Part shown: positions 9,080-36,716 of the stretch, piece after piece
How the letters are laid out: each line of letters begins with the position of its first letter
Numbering within the stretch: position 1 is the stretch's first letter
DNA from: a virus
Direction: 5' to 3' (one strand)
DNA length: 37,541 bases
IMG/VR virus record: IMGVR_UViG_3300049791_000034
Coordinates: 1 to 37,541 of that record
The notes under the pieces: generated by a model
The model's database searches: none
Seen by the model: the letters and a program-made list of their open reading frames with translations, nothing else
Told to the model about the DNA's origin: nothing
Program-made: the position numbers and the translations under genes

Positions 9080-9855
9080 TGGCAAAGGAACTACCCTATT
9101 TCAAATTTTATATTAATGATTGGCTTACCGGAAATGTGACATTATTGGATATGGAAACTCAGGGAGTATTTATAAACGTTTGTGTCCTTTTTTGGAGCCG
9201 AGATTGTGATCTAAAAATTGATGATTTATTTGAAAGATTTAAGAAAAAAGATAGAAAATATTTAGAAAAACTTATAGAAAAAAAAATTATTTGTGTAGAA
9301 AATAAAAATATTTCTATAAAATTTTTAGAAAAACAGCAAGAAAATTTTAAAAAACTTACAGAAACTAATAAAAAAAATGTAGAAAAAAGGTATGAAACTC
9401 AACAAAATCAACATTCTAATTCTACGACTGAAAATGTATCGGTATACAATATAGATAAGATAAGAGAAGATAAGAGTAAAGGAGATAAGAGAAGAGAAGA
9501 TAATAAAGAAAACTACGATTTCATCGAGAAGGATTTTTTAGAAACTTTTAGCACTTGGATAAAATACAAATCTGACCGAAAAGAAAAATATAAATCCATT
9601 GAATCTGAAAAATCATTTTACAATAAACTTTTAAAATTATCAAACAACGATCCGGTAACAGCTTTTGAAATTGTCGAACAGTCAATGGCAAACAACTGGG
9701 CAGGAATATTTGAATTAAAAAATAATAATCAAAATGGAAACCAACAACAAAATACAAACAAGCGCAAAGCCAATCTTGATGAACTTTCTCATCTCACCAA
9801 CCGAGTATTACAACAACCTTTCACCCTCATTAACGATAACTCAGGCAATATCTAG
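9079..9855 (+). CDS. Replication initiator / replisome organiser, O-like
   Basis: The N-terminus LPYFKFYINDWLTGNVTLLD, with METQGVFINVCVLFW, is the winged-helix start seen in phage replication proteins of the DUF1376/replisome-organiser type. A polar linker (residues about 110-150), rich in Asp, Lys and Arg, is encoded by iteron-like GATAAG repeats. The C-terminal part (FLETFSTWIKYKSDRKEKYK ... SMANNWAGIFELK) matches the end region common to these initiators. It would bind the origin and recruit host helicase. No phage helicase or polymerase is encoded. The 3' end is overlapped by the next gene. Confidence 0.8.
   Translation: MAKELPYFKFYINDWLTGNVTLLDMETQGVFINVCVLFWSRDCDLKIDDLFERFKKKDRKYLEKLIEKKIICVENKNISIKFLEKQQENFKKLTETNKKNVEKRYETQQNQHSNSTTENVSVYNIDKIREDKSKGDKRREDNKENYDFIEKDFLETFSTWIKYKSDRKEKYKSIESEKSFYNKLLKLSNNDPVTAFEIVEQSMANNWAGIFELKNNNQNGNQQQNTNKRKANLDELSHLTNRVLQQPFTLINDNSGNI
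9454..9504 (+). repeat. GATAAG iteron-like repeats: candidate origin
   Basis: GATAAG starts at 9454, 9459, 9469 and 9484, with a variant GATAAT at 9499. Three copies are GATAAGAG, and successive starts are 5, 10, 15 and 15 bp apart. The array lies inside the initiator gene, where lambdoid phages carry the origin iterons, and a very AT-rich tract (about 9285-9400) lies just upstream as a possible unwinding region. The same bases encode a low-complexity, charged linker, so codon-level coincidence remains possible. Confidence 0.5.
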
Positions 9856-10504
9856 CAATTTACCATGTATAGGGCAGTTTTCAAAGATTGTAAATAACGG
9901 TGAAATAATGATTAAAGCCTTGCTAGTACACGCTATTACTGACCTTAATCAGTTTTTGAACTTTCAAAACATTATGACCACGCCCCAAATAGCTGAAACG
10001 GCAATAATGATTTTAAACGATTTTAACGCCCTTAAAATAGATGACATAAGGGTTTGCCTATCTAATGGTAAAAAAGGTTACTACGGGGCTTTATTTGGAC
10101 GCATGGACGGTCAAATTATTATGATGTGGTTAGCCCAATATTCAACTGACCGAACAAATGAATTTTTGAGAATTCGAGATTTAGCAGAAAAACAAAGATT
10201 AAACCAAAAAATTGATGTTTCGGAAATAAATCCAGAAGGTCAAAAAAAAGTAATCGAAATTTTAAGCCAATACGCTAAAAAAGTTGATGTCCGAGTCGAA
10301 AAGCCAATTGTTGAAAAAACAGAGGGCCAAAAATTGATACAAAGATTCATGTCACAGTTCGATAAACTTTGGGCTAAAAGAGATTACGAAGCTAATGGAG
10401 GTCGATTTATTAAACGTTATGGTCGTATTATCGGGCAAGTCGAGTACGTTGAATACAAGTTAAATCAAATACAAATAATTAATAAACGGAAATTAGGATA
10501 TTGA
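9734..10504 (+). CDS. Replication-associated hypothetical protein, up to 256 aa
   Basis: Unrecognised by name, but the core resembles proteins that follow replication initiators in Bacteroidetes phages: a segment IAETAIMILNDFNALKIDDI, then VCLSNGKKGYYGALFGRMDGQIIMMWLAQY (pieces within residues 85-138). The C-terminal half is charged and helical. A helicase-loader-like role is an inference from position only. The longest frame overlaps the initiator by 122 bp; later ATGs at 9779 or 9908 may be the true start, and 9908 would remove the overlap while keeping the conserved core. Confidence 0.72.
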   Translation: METNNKIQTSAKPILMNFLISPTEYYNNLSPSLTITQAISSNLPCIGQFSKIVNNGEIMIKALLVHAITDLNQFLNFQNIMTTPQIAETAIMILNDFNALKIDDIRVCLSNGKKGYYGALFGRMDGQIIMMWLAQYSTDRTNEFLRIRDLAEKQRLNQKIDVSEINPEGQKKVIEILSQYAKKVDVRVEKPIVEKTEGQKLIQRFMSQFDKLWAKRDYEANGGRFIKRYGRIIGQVEYVEYKLNQIQIINKRKLGY

Positions 10505-10516
10505 ATAAATAAAGTT

Positions 10517-10524
10517 TACGTTTG
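10517..10524 (+). promoter_or_regulatory. -7 box upstream of candidate small RNA 2
   Basis: TACGTTTG fits TAnnTTTG exactly, 13 bp after the stop of the preceding gene. No TTG lies 19-21 bp upstream (TTAGG at 10493-10497 is the nearest), so promoter strength is uncertain. Confidence 0.5.
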
Positions 10525-10530
10525 CAATCA

Positions 10531-10620
10531 GTTAAGGTATGTAGAGATACCAATTTAAATTAACTAACCTATTAACCGTATGCCGGAGGTACTCTACTAC
10601 CAAAGGCTACGGTTTTTTTA
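10531..10620 (+). ncRNA. Candidate small RNA 2 with complementary (kissing) loops and terminator
   Basis: After the -7 box comes a compact structured RNA. GTTAA (10531-10535)/TTAAC enclose hairpin 1: stem GGTAT/ATACC (10536-10540/10547-10551), loop GTAGAG (10541-10546). The terminator stem AACCGTA-U-GCC/GGC-TACGGTT (10574-10584/10605-10614) is followed by a run of seven T (10613-10619) and encloses hairpin 2: GGTA/TACC (10588-10591/10598-10601), loop CTCTAC (10592-10597). The two six-base loops are perfect complements, so they can kiss within one molecule or between two. It could be a free RNA or an attenuator for the gene at 10634. Confidence 0.65.
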
Positions 10621-10633
10621 TTTTAAAAACATT

Positions 10634-10849
10634 ATGAAACTTTATCGAATTAAAGTAATTGACAGGAAAACTAATGAAGTTTTAGTCGATACGCAAGAGC
10701 GCTCCGGAACAAAAAAAAGACTACAATTAACTTACGCTTCAAGATATAAGTTTCATGAAAACGTAGTAAGTATCGAAATTACCCGATTAACCAGGATGCC
10801 AGGTATTCAATTAAACATTATAGACGCAATACAAAATGGAACAGATTAA
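10634..10849 (+). CDS. Small hypothetical protein, 71 aa
   Basis: I chose ATG 10634 because an upstream in-frame start lies inside the hairpin structure at 10531-10620. The protein is basic and beta-rich (YRIKVIDRKTNEVLVDTQER) with a C-terminal ITRLTRMPGIQLNIIDAI. No family recognised. Being the first gene after a terminator hairpin, its expression may depend on readthrough. It overlaps the IbrB-like gene by 14 bases. Confidence 0.65.
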   Translation: MKLYRIKVIDRKTNEVLVDTQERSGTKKRLQLTYASRYKFHENVVSIEITRLTRMPGIQLNIIDAIQNGTD

Positions 10850-11960
10850 AAATCAAATAACAGAAATGTTAATGAATTTAGAGTTATCAGATAAAATAAA
10901 TTCAATCAATGAAATTAGGGAGCATATACACCAAATGTGTCCATTCAAAAACGAGCCTGTCGATTTTGTGAAATGGGTATTAGCTGAAAATGTAGTAGCT
11001 AATGATTATAACCCAAATAAGGTTGCGCCACCCGAAATGGAATTATTAGAGATTTCAATCATGAATGATGGGTATACTCAGCCGGTTGTTACATTTCCTA
11101 ATGGAGATAAAATAGAGGTTGTCGATGGATTTCACAGAACAAGAGTTAGCAAAGAATCTAAAGTTGTTCGTCAAAGGGTTTTAGGGTATACGCCAACGGT
11201 CATAATTCGTAAAGAGCAAAGCAACAAAAACGACCGTATAGCATCTACGATTAGGCATAACCGGGCAAGGGGTAAGCATCAGGTTGATGCAATGAGTGAA
11301 ATTGTTTTAGAGTTAAAAAACCGTAATTGGAAAAATGAAAGAATAGCAAAAGAACTCGGAATGGATGAAGAAGAGATTTTGAGGCTTTGTCAAATTACAG
11401 GGTTACAGGATATTTTTAAAGATGACGACTTTAGCAAATCGTGGGAGTCATCAGATTCGGTTGCTAATTATGAAACATTAACGGACGACTTATCGGAAGA
11501 GGAAATAGAACATTACCGAACAACAAACACTAACGACCCTGACAGAATATTTCACACATTCGAAAAATGGGAATGCCATAAAGCGGGCTTCTATAGTTCT
11601 AAAAAGGATGGGCTAACAGCTGATCAATGCGAAAAAGTGTATTCTGATTTTTTATCAAATGACGAATTATTTAGAGTTGCTTTACAGGGTGTTTTAGATA
11701 ATTGGGTTAATTCATGCGAGCATTATTTAACCAATAAAGCAATGAATAGAATCGCATGGTTAGGGCAATCATCCGCTTGTTATTCAACCGGAGTCCCATC
11801 TAAGTTTTGTGGCGGTTGGAATCTGTTGGATGAAGATCAGCAAAATAAAGCAAATGAAACGGCTTTGGAATATTTAAATATTTGGATGAAAAAATACAAC
11901 AGACCTGAGTTAACAATGGAAGAGGCGTTATCAATCGGTAGACAAGTAAATATTTATTAA
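10836..11960 (+). CDS. IbrB-like ParB-domain protein
   Basis: A 374-residue protein with an N-terminal ParB/Srx-type domain: KVAPPEMELLEISIMNDGYT (about 62-81), VVDGFHRTRV (95-104), and the ParB arginine box IRHNRARGKH (139-148). A helix-turn-helix follows (NERIAKELGMDEEEILRL). It is not a partition protein: no ParA and no parS array are seen. The next gene, three bases downstream, encodes the PAPS-reductase-fold partner, the arrangement known from the ibrA/ibrB pair of E. coli prophages, which raises expression of immunoglobulin-binding (eib) genes. The biochemical role in phages is unsettled. Confidence 0.82.
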   Translation: MEQIKNQITEMLMNLELSDKINSINEIREHIHQMCPFKNEPVDFVKWVLAENVVANDYNPNKVAPPEMELLEISIMNDGYTQPVVTFPNGDKIEVVDGFHRTRVSKESKVVRQRVLGYTPTVIIRKEQSNKNDRIASTIRHNRARGKHQVDAMSEIVLELKNRNWKNERIAKELGMDEEEILRLCQITGLQDIFKDDDFSKSWESSDSVANYETLTDDLSEEEIEHYRTTNTNDPDRIFHTFEKWECHKAGFYSSKKDGLTADQCEKVYSDFLSNDELFRVALQGVLDNWVNSCEHYLTNKAMNRIAWLGQSSACYSTGVPSKFCGGWNLLDEDQQNKANETALEYLNIWMKKYNRPELTMEEALSIGRQVNIY

Positions 11961-11962
11961 TT

Positions 11963-13171
11963 ATGGCAACAAAAGTATACAATGATAAAACCGTACTTGA
12001 AGCAAGTAAGGAAAGGGTTTCGTTAGTTTTTGATAACTTCGAAAAAATATACGTATCGTTTTCTGGCGGTAAAGACAGTAGTGTTATGTCTCATTTAGTT
12101 TTGGCAGAGGCTAAAAAAAGAAACCGTAGAGTGGGGTTTTTGATAATTGATTTAGAAGCTCAATATAATGATACAATAATTCATATTGAATATATGATTG
12201 AAATGTATAAAGATTATATTGACTTACATTGGGTGTGTGCTGAGTTGTTATTAAGAAATGCGGTAAGTAATTATGAGCCTCGTTGGGTGTGTTGGGATGA
12301 AACTAAAAAAGACATTTGGGTAAGGGATAAGCCGGCACTTGCATCTGATTTAACTCAATACGATTTTTATCAACCCAAAATGGAATTTGAAGAGTTTATG
12401 GTGATTTTTGGAGAATGGTATTCTGAAGGTAAAACAACGGCTGCGTTTATCGGAATACGTTCAGATGAATCTTTGCACAGATATAGAGCTATCACGTCCC
12501 GTAAAGACGGATTAATGTTTAATAATTGGAAATGGTCTACAAAAGTTTCTGCTAAGTTATTTAATATTTATCCTATTTACGACTGGAGAACTGAGGATAT
12601 TTGGGTGTTTCATGGTAAGTATAACGAATTGCCACATAATAAGATTTACGACAAAATGATGATGGCAGGTGTTAAAATTAGTCAGCAACGTTTATGTCAG
12701 CCTTATGGAGACGATCAAAGGAGAGGGTTATGGCTGTATCACATTCTGGAACCTACTACATGGGGCAAATTAATTGTTAGGGTAAATGGAGTAAATAGCG
12801 GAACGTTATACATTAGAGAAAACGGAAACATGACAGGTTACAATAAAATTACAAAGCCTGAAAATCATAATTGGGAATCGTTTTGTAATATGCTTTTATC
12901 TACTATGCCAAAGAAGACGAGTGATCATTATCGAGAACGGTTCGTTAAATTCATAAAGGGGTGGCAAGATAGAGGGTATTTGGTTATTCCGGATGAAGCT
13001 CCTGAAGATTTAGAATCAAAATGTTGGGTTCCGTCATGGCGTAGAATGTGTAAAGTTATGCTTAGAAATGATTATTGGTGCAAGGGATTAGGGCAAACGC
13101 AACCATTTTCAGAAGCGTATGGTAAATTTAAGGACATAAAAAAGAAACGACTATTAGAAAAATCACTTTAA
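11963..13171 (+). CDS. IbrA-like PAPS-reductase-fold protein
   Basis: A 402-residue adenine-nucleotide alpha-hydrolase. The PP-loop is SFSGGKDSSV (residues 32-41); further family landmarks are FIGIRSDESLHRYRAI, YPIYDWRTEDIWVF and ISQQRLCQPYGDDQRRGLW, the last typical of IbrA/DUF3440-type proteins. The C-terminal third (KKTSDHYRERFVKFIKGW ... CWVPSWRRMC) fits the same group. The domain binds ATP or PAPS and could transfer sulphur or adenylate. It is paired with the ParB-domain protein upstream, as in ibrAB. A nucleic-acid modification or transcription-control function is inference. Confidence 0.87.
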   Translation: MATKVYNDKTVLEASKERVSLVFDNFEKIYVSFSGGKDSSVMSHLVLAEAKKRNRRVGFLIIDLEAQYNDTIIHIEYMIEMYKDYIDLHWVCAELLLRNAVSNYEPRWVCWDETKKDIWVRDKPALASDLTQYDFYQPKMEFEEFMVIFGEWYSEGKTTAAFIGIRSDESLHRYRAITSRKDGLMFNNWKWSTKVSAKLFNIYPIYDWRTEDIWVFHGKYNELPHNKIYDKMMMAGVKISQQRLCQPYGDDQRRGLWLYHILEPTTWGKLIVRVNGVNSGTLYIRENGNMTGYNKITKPENHNWESFCNMLLSTMPKKTSDHYRERFVKFIKGWQDRGYLVIPDEAPEDLESKCWVPSWRRMCKVMLRNDYWCKGLGQTQPFSEAYGKFKDIKKKRLLEKSL

Positions 13172-17382: not shown

Positions 17383-19646
17383 TAGTTTAATTGTTTAACC
17401 GTTATTTGTGTACCTAACTGATAAATCGTAGATGTTTGTGTATTTGTTCCACTTGCAAAACCAAACTGAATATTTGAAGCCGTTGAACTCATTTGAACCT
17501 CTCCACTAATCTTGAAAAATCCGTTAGGACTATTAACCTGACATGTTGCAGAGCTTAAAGTTGCACTTGCTGTTATGGCATTAAATAATCCAGCCGTACC
17601 ACTTGTTGTGAATCCTAAATAAGACAAGTATATTGTTGCTCCTGCCGGTAACGTAACTTGAATTTTAACTCCACCTGTGTTATTACATCCTACGTGAATC
17701 ACTCCTTCAAATGAATAGCGTTTATTAATTGTTGGAGTAAATACTAAATCGGTAATTGAACTAGCTACATTTGAGGTTGTGGTTTGATCCCCAGTAGTAA
17801 TCATCATATCCCATTCTTTAAGGTTATTCCGAGCTGTTATAAAGTTTGCTAAATCAGATAGGTTATTTGCTACCTTTACACATAATGCACTTATAGCATC
17901 TGCATAAGCAGTACTAGCAGCTTTGGCACTATTATCGCCTGGAGCTTGAGTGCCTACAATAGCATTAGTTAATGTTTTATTAGTTAATGTTTGAGTTGCT
18001 CCCAACCTAACAACACCTGCATCAAATGTCCAATTAGTAGAACTAGCTGCTATAAATCTACGGTGAGCATTAGCACTTGACATAACCTCTGTGCCATTTA
18101 ATACATTGTTTAAGTATTCACCTGATTGAACAGCAATAGTAATTGTGTTAGTACTTGTAATTGTTCCAATAGCATCATCTATTGTTTTTTCATTTCCTGC
18201 ATTTACACTTGCGGCACTTGGTAGTGTCCAAATTCTAGGTGCTGTTAAAACTGTTCCTGTAACAATAAAGTTATCGGCAGCTAGAATATTGTAAGCAGCA
18301 TTACCACCATTGGTTGTGGTTTCAAATTTCTTTTGTATGTATGTGAAAATATTTGCTAACGTTGTTTTAATATAAGACCATGAATTAGCAGAATCTTGTC
18401 CTGTTAATTCATCAGCATCTACAAGCACAGATTTAGAAGTTGCTGCATGACCTAATGAAGCTAACCTTGCGCTCGTTTCATCTCCTGTGTTTGTTCCGCT
18501 ATTAGTTCCGGTAATATCAGAAGTTAGAGCTACGGTTCCAGTAGCATCAGGAAAAGTATAAGTACGAGTTGCCGTATTTGAGTTTGTGAAAAATGAAGTA
18601 AATGTATTTAAAGCGTTTTTAAAGTTGATATTAAAAAGAGTTAATCCTACATAACCTCCTGTAGCACCTTTATTAGTTGTTGCTTCATAACTACCTGTGG
18701 CTTGTTTACCATTTAATTGTGTTTGTATCGAACTCGTAGCATCATTATACGTTTGTTGATTGTCAGTTTGATAACGCTTATTCGTACTATCTGCAAAGTC
18801 GACCGTTGTTGCATCTGCTCCGCTTGTTACCAATCCTTTTGAATCGTAAGTAACTTTGGTTTTTGTTGCTCCTGTTATGGCTGTATTTGCTGTTACAAAT
18901 AATCCAATAGACCAATCATATATTGCTTTTACACTTGCATAAACTGTATTACTTGTTGTATTTCCTGCAACTGATGTAACTTTATTGCTTGCGTTTTCTG
19001 GAACATACCCTAGATTATTTTCGGTAATAGTCCAATTAGATGAGGTTTGTCCAGGAGCATCTGATAAACATCTAACAACATCGCCAATAGTTACGGCAAC
19101 ACTGCCTAAAGTTCCGTTTACACTAATAGTCCATAAATCGCCTTTTAAAATTGCTCCTAAAGTTCCACTACCACCACTAGAAGGGAATAAGTTAACCGAC
19201 GCATCGTAATTACCTCTATCATCCAACATTCCGATAATAGCATTATTTACATCATTTACCGTTGCAACCGAGACACCATTTAATGATATTGTACCATTCT
19301 GACCATCTATATCAATAGTTGATTCATCATCAGAATTTCGTAAAGTGATTTCGCCCCCCCCTAAATCATTTGGACTAATAATTATTTTTGGTAAGTCATC
19401 AGTTAACCCTTTAAGTGTAATTGCATCTGTTGTGGTTGCTCCTATTGCAGTTGTTTGAGCTAGGGATTGAGCAGAACCACCTCCTAAGAATGGTAAAGCG
19501 GATAAGGCTGTTACGCCATCACCTTTTTTAAAAGTTCCGCTATTATCTTTTAGCCATAATATTTGACCATCCAATAATATTAAATCGGGATTCGCTGTAA
19601 AAAATGCAGCATCTTTATGACCTTGTTTTACACTAACTAATGCCAT
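17382..19646 (-). CDS. Tail fibre / receptor-binding protein
   Basis: A 754-residue fibre. Residues 1-60 (ALVSVKQGHKDAAFFTANPD, ILWLKDNSGTFKKGDGVTAL) are a baseplate-attachment module common in phage fibres. A long Thr/Ser/Asn-rich shaft follows, with phage-fibre phrases such as TVNDVNNAI, TKVTYDSKGLVTSG and GATQTLTNKTLTNAIVGT, ending in a beta-rich C-terminal domain (about 620-754) that probably binds the receptor. A run of eight G in the coding strand (plus 19354-19361, codons 96-98) is out of keeping with the AT-rich genome and could shift frame. Coupled to the next upstream gene. Confidence 0.85.
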   Translation of the reverse strand: MALVSVKQGHKDAAFFTANPDLILLDGQILWLKDNSGTFKKGDGVTALSALPFLGGGSAQSLAQTTAIGATTTDAITLKGLTDDLPKIIISPNDLGGGEITLRNSDDESTIDIDGQNGTISLNGVSVATVNDVNNAIIGMLDDRGNYDASVNLFPSSGGSGTLGAILKGDLWTISVNGTLGSVAVTIGDVVRCLSDAPGQTSSNWTITENNLGYVPENASNKVTSVAGNTTSNTVYASVKAIYDWSIGLFVTANTAITGATKTKVTYDSKGLVTSGADATTVDFADSTNKRYQTDNQQTYNDATSSIQTQLNGKQATGSYEATTNKGATGGYVGLTLFNINFKNALNTFTSFFTNSNTATRTYTFPDATGTVALTSDITGTNSGTNTGDETSARLASLGHAATSKSVLVDADELTGQDSANSWSYIKTTLANIFTYIQKKFETTTNGGNAAYNILAADNFIVTGTVLTAPRIWTLPSAASVNAGNEKTIDDAIGTITSTNTITIAVQSGEYLNNVLNGTEVMSSANAHRRFIAASSTNWTFDAGVVRLGATQTLTNKTLTNAIVGTQAPGDNSAKAASTAYADAISALCVKVANNLSDLANFITARNNLKEWDMMITTGDQTTTSNVASSITDLVFTPTINKRYSFEGVIHVGCNNTGGVKIQVTLPAGATIYLSYLGFTTSGTAGLFNAITASATLSSATCQVNSPNGFFKISGEVQMSSTASNIQFGFASGTNTQTSTIYQLGTQITVKQLN

Positions 19647-31694: not shown

Positions 31695-31766
31695 AGCGGA
31701 GTGTTGGATTCGAACCAACGATCTTTAGGTAATGAGCCTAACGAGATAACCCCTTCTCTAACCCGC
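31695..31766 (-). tRNA. tRNA with CAT anticodon (Met or Ile2), atypical
   Basis: Full cloverleaf on the minus strand: D-arm GAGA/TCTC with loop AGGGGTTA, anticodon arm TTAGG-CTCATTA-CCTAA (anticodon CAT, plus 31732-31734), a five-base variable loop, and T-arm GTTGG-TTCGAAT-CCAAC. Oddities: the 5' acceptor strand is GCGGGT, one base short of its partner ACTCCGC, so one base bulges; base 37 is T instead of a purine; no CCA is encoded. The anticodon stem lacks the three G-C pairs of initiator tRNA. It sits between two late structural genes and shares their strand. Confidence 0.8.
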
Positions 31767-35318: not shown

Positions 35319-36716
35319 ATGCTAGATAATTATCAAGACCCAAATTTCTTTGAACGATTAATAGGAGCATTTCGAGGTTCAAAACAATCTAAAAAACAGT
35401 TTTATAATACGAGAGTTCCATATATGATGAACTCAGGAAAAGTGTATATTAATACAGATGTGCCCTATCTGATTTATAATTCAATCCCTCAAATAAGTCT
35501 AACGGTTGACAAGATTTCGGCCATGTTTAGCAATGGTGTATTTAAGTATCAAAAAATAGGGAGTGATAAGTTTTTAGATATGCCAAAGGAATTAGGAGTA
35601 TTATTAGAAAAACCTAATATTTTTCAAGGTCAAAATGCCTTTATGAAACAATATATTTTGCAATATTTAATTTATGGTAATCAGTATATTCGTAAAAATC
35701 AAGCGAGCACACTATCCAAAGTTCCCACATCTTTACTAAATGTTTCACCAACTTATTTAAAGCCTATTTTAACCGGCAAAATGTTTGACCAGGTTAATAT
35801 GGATGGCGTTATAAGTAAGTATGAATACACAGAAAACGGATCTATTAAATCATTTGAAACAAATGAGATATTATGGTCAAAGGTAGCGGATTTAGATAAT
35901 CCTGTTATTGGATGTTCGCCTTTACTATCGTTGCAATTTCCAATATCAAATACAGAATTAGCGTATAAATATTTGAATTGCATTAGTGGTGAAAAAGGAG
36001 CTATTGGTATATTAAGTAATCAGTCTAAGGATTCAATGGGATCTATACCCATGGATGAATCCGAAAAAAAAGAAATAGAATCCTCTTATAGATCTGGCAA
36101 TGGCATTGAAGATGGCCAGAAAAAGATACACATAACAAATGGAACCGTTTCTTGGGCGCCTATGTCATATCCAACAGGACAATTATTGCTATTAGAGCAA
36201 ATTGATGCAAACTTTTTAACTATCCTGGCAAAGTATGGAGTTAATTCAAACATCTTTGTTAATAGTACTTATGAGAATTTAAGACATGGATTAATGTCTA
36301 CACATAATGATACGATACAACCTCATGCAGATCAATTTTGTCAGCATTTATCTGAGTTCATAGGTATTGATAAGGGATATAAATTAGTATTGGATTATTC
36401 GCATTTGCCGTATTTACAAACAGATAAAAAGAATGAGGCAGAAACAATTAAAGTAATATCAGATTCACTTACCGAATTGGTTAATGCCGGCATAATTTCA
36501 AACGAATCAGCTCAAATAATAATGGCAAATAATTTAAATACAACGGTTGAGGATTTACAGTTTAAAGGAAATCCATTAACGAAAAAATTAACTACATTAA
36601 GTCCGCTTGTTGCAAATAATGTATTAAATAAATTTACGGATAATGAAGTTAGGAGCTTAGTAGACCTGCCAAAAATAGAAGGTGGTGACGTAATAAATAC
36701 ACCAGTAGCTTTCTAA
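35319..36716 (+). CDS. Portal protein, HK97-type
   Basis: Dodecameric gate of the head, 465 residues. Family landmarks are YLIYNSIPQISLTVDKISAM (about 50-69), FMKQYILQYLIYGNQYIRKN (about 107-126), LDNPVIGCSPLLSLQFPISN (about 192-211), RSGNGIEDGQKKIHITNGTV, and LTILAKYGVNSNIFVNSTYE with NLRHGLMSTHNDTIQPHADQ, the latter typical of phage portals. It is the only virion gene on the plus strand: terminase converges on it from the right (stop codons overlap in CTAA at 36713-36716) and the protease diverges on the left. It has its own promoter box. Confidence 0.9.
   Translation: MLDNYQDPNFFERLIGAFRGSKQSKKQFYNTRVPYMMNSGKVYINTDVPYLIYNSIPQISLTVDKISAMFSNGVFKYQKIGSDKFLDMPKELGVLLEKPNIFQGQNAFMKQYILQYLIYGNQYIRKNQASTLSKVPTSLLNVSPTYLKPILTGKMFDQVNMDGVISKYEYTENGSIKSFETNEILWSKVADLDNPVIGCSPLLSLQFPISNTELAYKYLNCISGEKGAIGILSNQSKDSMGSIPMDESEKKEIESSYRSGNGIEDGQKKIHITNGTVSWAPMSYPTGQLLLLEQIDANFLTILAKYGVNSNIFVNSTYENLRHGLMSTHNDTIQPHADQFCQHLSEFIGIDKGYKLVLDYSHLPYLQTDKKNEAETIKVISDSLTELVNAGIISNESAQIIMANNLNTTVEDLQFKGNPLTKKLTTLSPLVANNVLNKFTDNEVRSLVDLPKIEGGDVINTPVAF

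Follow-up and report, generated by a model that had tools for sequence, protein, structure and literature searches.

In a viral DNA stretch of 37,541 nucleotides (hereafter the window, meaning the whole stretch that was analyzed), a short gap between two genes holds a pair of small hairpins whose loops are exact reverse complements, the second of them seated within a terminator. This raises the question of whether the two loops pair in the RNA and, if so, whether the unit makes a free small RNA or acts as a leader for the gene behind it. A first-pass annotation, made from the letters alone, had named both roles, and here the unit is compared with homologous elements in viral contigs and bacterial genomes.

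Architecture and surroundings of the element

The element sits in the gap between a 256-aa ORF ending at 10504 and the ATG (10634) of a 71-aa ORF, on the early strand. The phage appears to be temperate and tailed, and its genes include those for a CI-like repressor, Erf, Gam, NinB, NinG, and an O-like replication protein. The element opens with the -7 promoter box TACGTTTG (10517–10524, + strand), which follows the Bacteroidota pattern TAnnTTTG, the sigma-A -7 consensus of Flavobacterium (PMC9723704), and its transcript likely starts near 10530. In the MFE fold, a 5′ hairpin (10530–10565, +) is closed by an outer stem AGTTAA (10530–10535)/TTAACT (10560–10565), which was absent from the first-pass annotation and recurs with identical letters in locus L011 and with similar ones in L433. 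Within it, hairpin 1 (+) consists of GGTAT (10536–10540), loop A GTAGAG (10541–10546), and ATACC (10547–10551), as seen in the sequence, in the fold, and in homologous hairpins with covarying loops. The intrinsic terminator (10574–10619, +) is likewise found by sequence and fold, with the stem AACCGTA-GCC/GGC-TACGGTT and a U7 tract (10613–10619); in a reading of the sequence, its arms are CCGTA(T)GCC (10576–10584) and GGC TACGG (10605–10612). Its apical hairpin (10588–10601, +; sequence and fold) is made of GGTA (10588–10591), loop B CTCTAC (10592–10597), and TACC (10598–10601), loop B being the exact reverse complement of loop A. Both hairpins and the terminator are present in the MFE fold (−24.4 kcal/mol, z −2.5), and the box, hairpins, complementary loops, and seven-T terminator thus stand in sequence and fold as the first-pass annotation had placed them, the terminator being intrinsic-like. 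A simple terminator scan overlooked this terminator because its loop is long.

The first gene after the element is the 71-aa ORF (10634–10849, +), whose ATG stands 21 nt past the first T of the U tract, a proximity that the first-pass annotation did not mention; Pfam and PHROG gave no match for it. It is followed in the same operon by a ParB-like (IbrB-like) gene (10836–11960, +; PHROG 2159, E 1e−68) and a PAPS-reductase/DUF3440 (IbrA-like) gene (11963–13171, +; Pfam PF11922, PF01507). Relatives of the upstream 256-aa protein were searched for and none were found; its ORF shares about 120 nt (9734–9855) with the O-like replication ORF before it, and its true start may be further downstream. 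Elsewhere in the window, a portal-like gene (PHROG 12) is located at 35319–36716 (+), with neighboring terminase-like and head genes on the − strand, and a tRNA gene (31695–31766, −) lies within the phage structural region.

Taken alone, the loop match in the window is only modest evidence, as it is no more than mildly improbable: when the element was shuffled with its dinucleotides preserved, two hairpins (stem ≥ 4, loop 6–8) with a 6-nt loop match arose in 31 of 20,000 cases, and three other places in the window (both strands) also satisfied the bare two-hairpin criterion. Among these window matches, box, terminator, and start codon are found together at this element only. The exact hairpin 1 16-mer had eight matches in viral contigs, none of them with the partner loop, and these were set aside as chance.

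Recurrence of the layout in phages

Loci were first gathered from orthologues of the ParB-like gene (80 viral loci), whose upstream DNA was read. The same layout with other loops was present in L011, L012, L025, L052, L053, and L086 (loop pairs in this set: TGTGCG/CGCACA, ATGCGAC/GTCGCAT, CGTCTCAC/GTGAGACG, and GGTCTCA/TGAGACC). Further members came from a descriptor search and from a pattern scan of the viral collection with the commonest loop; an initial version of the descriptor, too strict in demanding perfect stems, had passed over real members. The family is defined by the descriptor together with a covariance model (R1). Its marks are the box just upstream of the 5′ hairpin, the loop complementarity, and a U tract about 7–50 nt before a start codon, and the sets analyzed, which overlap, contain 85 distinct members by descriptor and 84 distinct hits by covariance model. 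Altogether, the layout was found again in at least 84 distinct elements, mostly viral and with many different loop pairs, including TGTGCG/CGCACA, GGTCTCAC/GTGAGACC, GTCCTAC/GTAGGAC, and AGTGCAG/CTGCACT. One loop sequence alone yielded more than 80 contigs with model-confirmed members among the matches listed for the viral collection. The TAnnTTTG box stands just upstream in 73 of the 84 distinct covariance-model members, and a -33 promoter box is not evident across the family.

The window element itself has the box (10517–10524), the complementary loops, and the U tract 21 nt before an ATG. When R1 was run on 1 kb of the window with filters off, it was the top match (14.3 bits, E 0.024, with hairpin 1 out of register), and it fell below the reporting level of E 1 in the large R1 search; its relative L011 scored 25.2 bits (E 0.09). 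It is a divergent member with a weak model score, tied to the family by architecture and position. The positional tie comes from L053, where an R1-positive leader precedes a relative of the same 71-aa ORF (a 74-aa protein, 62% identical, behind the covariance-model-positive leader in L002/L053).

The family is almost confined to phages; in one bacterial family, 2 of 199 genomes have the leader. A scan of genome contigs with the dominant loop returned mostly chance matches, the only strong members being L236 and L284. Five streptococcal and similar genomes (L247, L248, L257, L297, and L303) gave identical weak model scores (28.2 bits, GC 0.27), which are probably chance or a different repeated element. 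The only named phage found is Flavobacterium phage FL-1 (L343, KY421186.2), which carries an unannotated member at 18941–19012 with the loop pair CGTCTCAC/GTGAGACG; a comparison of the window element with named phages by DNA similarity gave no meaningful match. We infer Bacteroidota hosts on three grounds, namely the type of promoter, FL-1, and the two genome matches; host records for the viral contigs played no part in this.

A dominant class of members shares a conserved internal loop (AATGAA/GGATTT) and the loop core TCTCAC. A short ORF inside this class (ATGAAnnnGAAGTGA) was considered and rejected as a structural coincidence, its frame not being conserved when judged by eye. In a second class (L018:7897, L047:2064, L073:2757, L011:5794, and L053:10440, all +), hairpin 1 is missing, and the interior of the terminator has its complement in a 7–13 nt strand at the 5′ end. 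This points to the joining of 5′ end and terminator as the broader principle. An ATGAAA-type start lies just behind this 5′ strand and may mark a small leader ORF; several of these elements have an extra mini hairpin.

Tests of loop complementarity

Since the descriptor demands complementarity and is therefore circular in this respect, three tests without that demand were used. In the first, elements were detected blind to their loops (box, terminator, T-run, and ORF start) in the window and in L002–L104, loci fetched mainly by protein and in a few cases by the hairpin 1 16-mer. Among the 27 elements obtained, complementarity between an element's own loops reached ≥ 6 nt in 21 and ≥ 7 nt in 17, as against 20% and 5%, respectively, of control cross-pairs. 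Over all loci (137 elements), 103 had own complementarity of ≥ 7 nt vs. 28% of cross-pairs, a control figure that is inflated by the shared TCTCAC loop. In the second, a promoter-only DNA pattern returned eight box-plus-terminator units: the four with an ORF behind them (L025 again and three new ones) have 6–10 nt of complementarity, and the other four have ≤ 5. In the third, planned as a negative control, two inner letters of the loop were swapped; of the 39 contigs retrieved and judged with a model without pseudoknot, 16 held true members and 23 none.

In an alignment of 53 sequences, pairing in the kissing helix reaches 99.3%, and five of its eight pairs have changed on both sides; the constancy of the inner pairs is partly a matter of sampling because most rows were fetched by the GTCTCAC loop. 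Covariation is strong in the other helices, and both-side cells number 280 over the entire structure, compared with 85.5 in shuffles and 43–96 in slid controls. These sequence comparisons confirm the loop–loop pairing as real and evolutionarily kept while the sequence changes. The kissing interaction put forward in the first-pass annotation is thereby upheld, and a check for homologues whose loops vary without complementarity encountered no such loss. Its further suggestion, a switch built on the stem sequence that the two hairpins share, did not hold: the long GGTA/TACC duplex is special to the window among the members compared, predicted duplexes elsewhere shrink to the loops or to the loops plus a few pairs, and the conserved part is the loop–loop kiss.

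Position of the element and the genes behind it

In 82 of the 85 descriptor members, an ORF of ≥ 35 aa begins 7–49 nt past the U tract, whereas only 43 of 170 other intergenic terminators on the same contigs have a start codon within 5–40 nt. Among the model hits, where neither the box nor the start codon is used by the model, the U tract precedes a start codon in 83 of 84. This regular placement ahead of a gene makes a 5′ leader with a terminator, i.e., an attenuator, the best reading of the unit, in preference to a free small RNA, and the spacer between U tract and start codon (typically 7–31 nt) is too short for the gene to have a promoter of its own there.

The genes behind the leaders begin with about 70 different N-termini (about 74 among the model hits) and include DUF6291, NUMOD4/HNH, and BT4734-like/VapE primase families as well as a C5 methylase, while upstream of the leaders Bac_DnaA_C is the most frequent domain. 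Promoter and leader are shared by L353 and L354, but each has its own gene directly behind the U tract. Given such varied genes, the leader is a module not bound to ibrB/ibrA, and we read the unit, from sequence comparison, as a portable expression leader that probably sets the output of the gene behind it. The earlier proposal that the unit gates the downstream genes thus fits its position, but the connection to ibrB/ibrA or to replication-gene boundaries is not specific, with dozens of unrelated genes behind; likewise, of the two roles named at the outset, the attenuator is favored and the free small RNA less so.

Proposed mechanism and alternative readings

With moderate confidence, we prefer to read the unit as an attenuator, a 5′ leader that acts in cis on an early operon of the phage; the kiss would lock the terminator and a fraction of transcripts would read through. 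We infer that transcription starts at the TAnnTTTG box, a few nt from hairpin 1, that termination occurs, and that the kiss helps it. During synthesis of the RNA, the hairpin 1 loop would capture the apical loop of the terminator in an intramolecular kissing pseudoknot (6 to 10 pairs in different phages), which most likely organizes and locks a large, loosely closed terminator hairpin; most transcripts would then stop at the U tract and a fraction would continue into the gene behind. The kiss occupies only the two loops, so it can coexist with the terminator stem, and this coexistence favors a terminator-locking role over an exclusive switch. In the dominant class, no strong conserved antiterminator was found between the spacer and the 5′ arm of the terminator; a weak 4-bp pairing of these two segments is present in about half of the class and exceeds permutations (0/5000, with relatedness uncontrolled).

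Besides this lack of a strong antiterminator, two points weigh against the leader: compact phage genomes place genes close behind anything, as the 25% rate among the control terminators shows, and an RNA that is usually kept in single copy per record while the gene behind it changes would suit a free small RNA as well. The main rival, unlikely in our judgment, is accordingly a stand-alone phage small RNA of about 90–95 nt with its own promoter, 5′ hairpin, and intrinsic terminator, whose ends would be tied and protected by the kiss and which would act in trans, the next gene being served by an upstream promoter. It keeps this place because the leader usually occurs once per record and outlasts changes of neighbor; the transcription unit is also complete, and near exclusivity to phages would agree with it. 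However, the start codon that so regularly follows the U tract, compared with 25% of other terminators, speaks against a free RNA, and the loops differ widely even among phages with the same neighbors, leaving no conserved target-binding sequence outside the dominant class.

Self-counting, already raised in the first-pass annotation, is an improbable rival: a terminated leader would dimerize, or would use the same loops to pair with sister leaders still being transcribed, so that termination tracks phage copy number. Self-complementary loop pairs can swap between molecules, and the contigs with several leaders (two in L025, two in L155, three in L218, and one plus one of the second class in both L011 and L053) show no loop cross-pairing above 5 nt, as insulation would require, though such contigs are few and intramolecular pairing should win at low concentration. 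Given small numbers and biased sampling, these non-cross-pairing loops are a hint of insulation. A one-component RNA counter, whose private loop pair would recognize its own nascent copies, whose readthrough would report copy number, and whose sister leaders in one genome would be insulated by orthogonal loops, is in our view a similarly long shot.

Quite improbable, too, is a ligand- or protein-sensing (riboswitch-like) leader, for which the strongly conserved AATGAA/GGATTT and TCTCAC letters of the dominant class would speak; the window and other divergent members have the architecture without those letters, and the conservation of TCTCAC is partly a product of fetching by that pattern. Chance, i.e., small hairpins with matching loops that happen to lie beside a terminator, is a negligible explanation despite the bare feature arising in shuffles, as dozens of phages repeat the layout with changed yet complementary loops and the comparative data already refute it.

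Novelty and comparison with known systems

Rfam 15, whose families include riboswitches, C4 antisense RNA, ROOL, GOLLD, and pRNA, found only a tRNA in the whole window, with chance-level matches at the element, and nothing at the element in six loci with members, relaxed thresholds included; no family reached its gathering score at the element. A sub-threshold Rfam match to isrG was observed at L052:1985–2221 (30.5 bits against a gathering threshold of 100, E 2e−4). The text of the open papers searched gave no description of this architecture; published lists of candidate structured RNAs include Bacteroidetes phage-linked ones from the human microbiome (PMC8040213) and may contain the family as an unnamed entry. 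The leader family is thus apparently undescribed and widespread in Bacteroidota phages, of which it appears to be a common regulatory RNA. With its freely reprogrammable loop pairs, it suggests a general means of linking the beginning of an RNA to the terminator, one that might serve as a source of orthogonal expression parts for Bacteroidota, and FL-1, as a cultured phage, is a suitable experimental system.

Some of the closest parallels lie in plasmids. In pT181 and pIP501, transcription attenuation is driven by antisense RNA, and RNA contacts decide whether the leader terminator forms (PMC8383071). The phage leader resembles them in standing before a gene and in leaving readthrough to RNA–RNA contacts and an intrinsic terminator, but their partner is a separate antisense RNA, while here the partner loop belongs to the same transcript, inside the terminator. 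The pseudoknot in the ColIb-P9 repZ leader, where distant leader elements pair as a molecular switch (PMC8383071), shares the pairing between distant elements of one leader; it controls translation and not a terminator, and its host and sequence are unrelated.

TAR–TAR* and the ColE1 RNAI–RNAII pair form kissing complexes through fully complementary loops of 6–7 nt on short stems. Loops of this kind, fully complementary, are also found in the window (6 nt) and in L025 (7 nt), although TAR–TAR* and RNAI–RNAII act between two molecules. Among phage RNAs, the pRNA of phi29 is multimeric and uses kissing loops. ROOL and GOLLD are likewise phage-encoded multimeric RNAs, with kissing loops supported by covariation (PMC12286853). 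All three share with the leader the use of kissing loops by a phage RNA, but ROOL and GOLLD are much larger, and in ROOL, GOLLD, and pRNA the contacts are made between molecules and outside a leader position, unlike the pairing within one transcript, ahead of a gene, that is proposed here.
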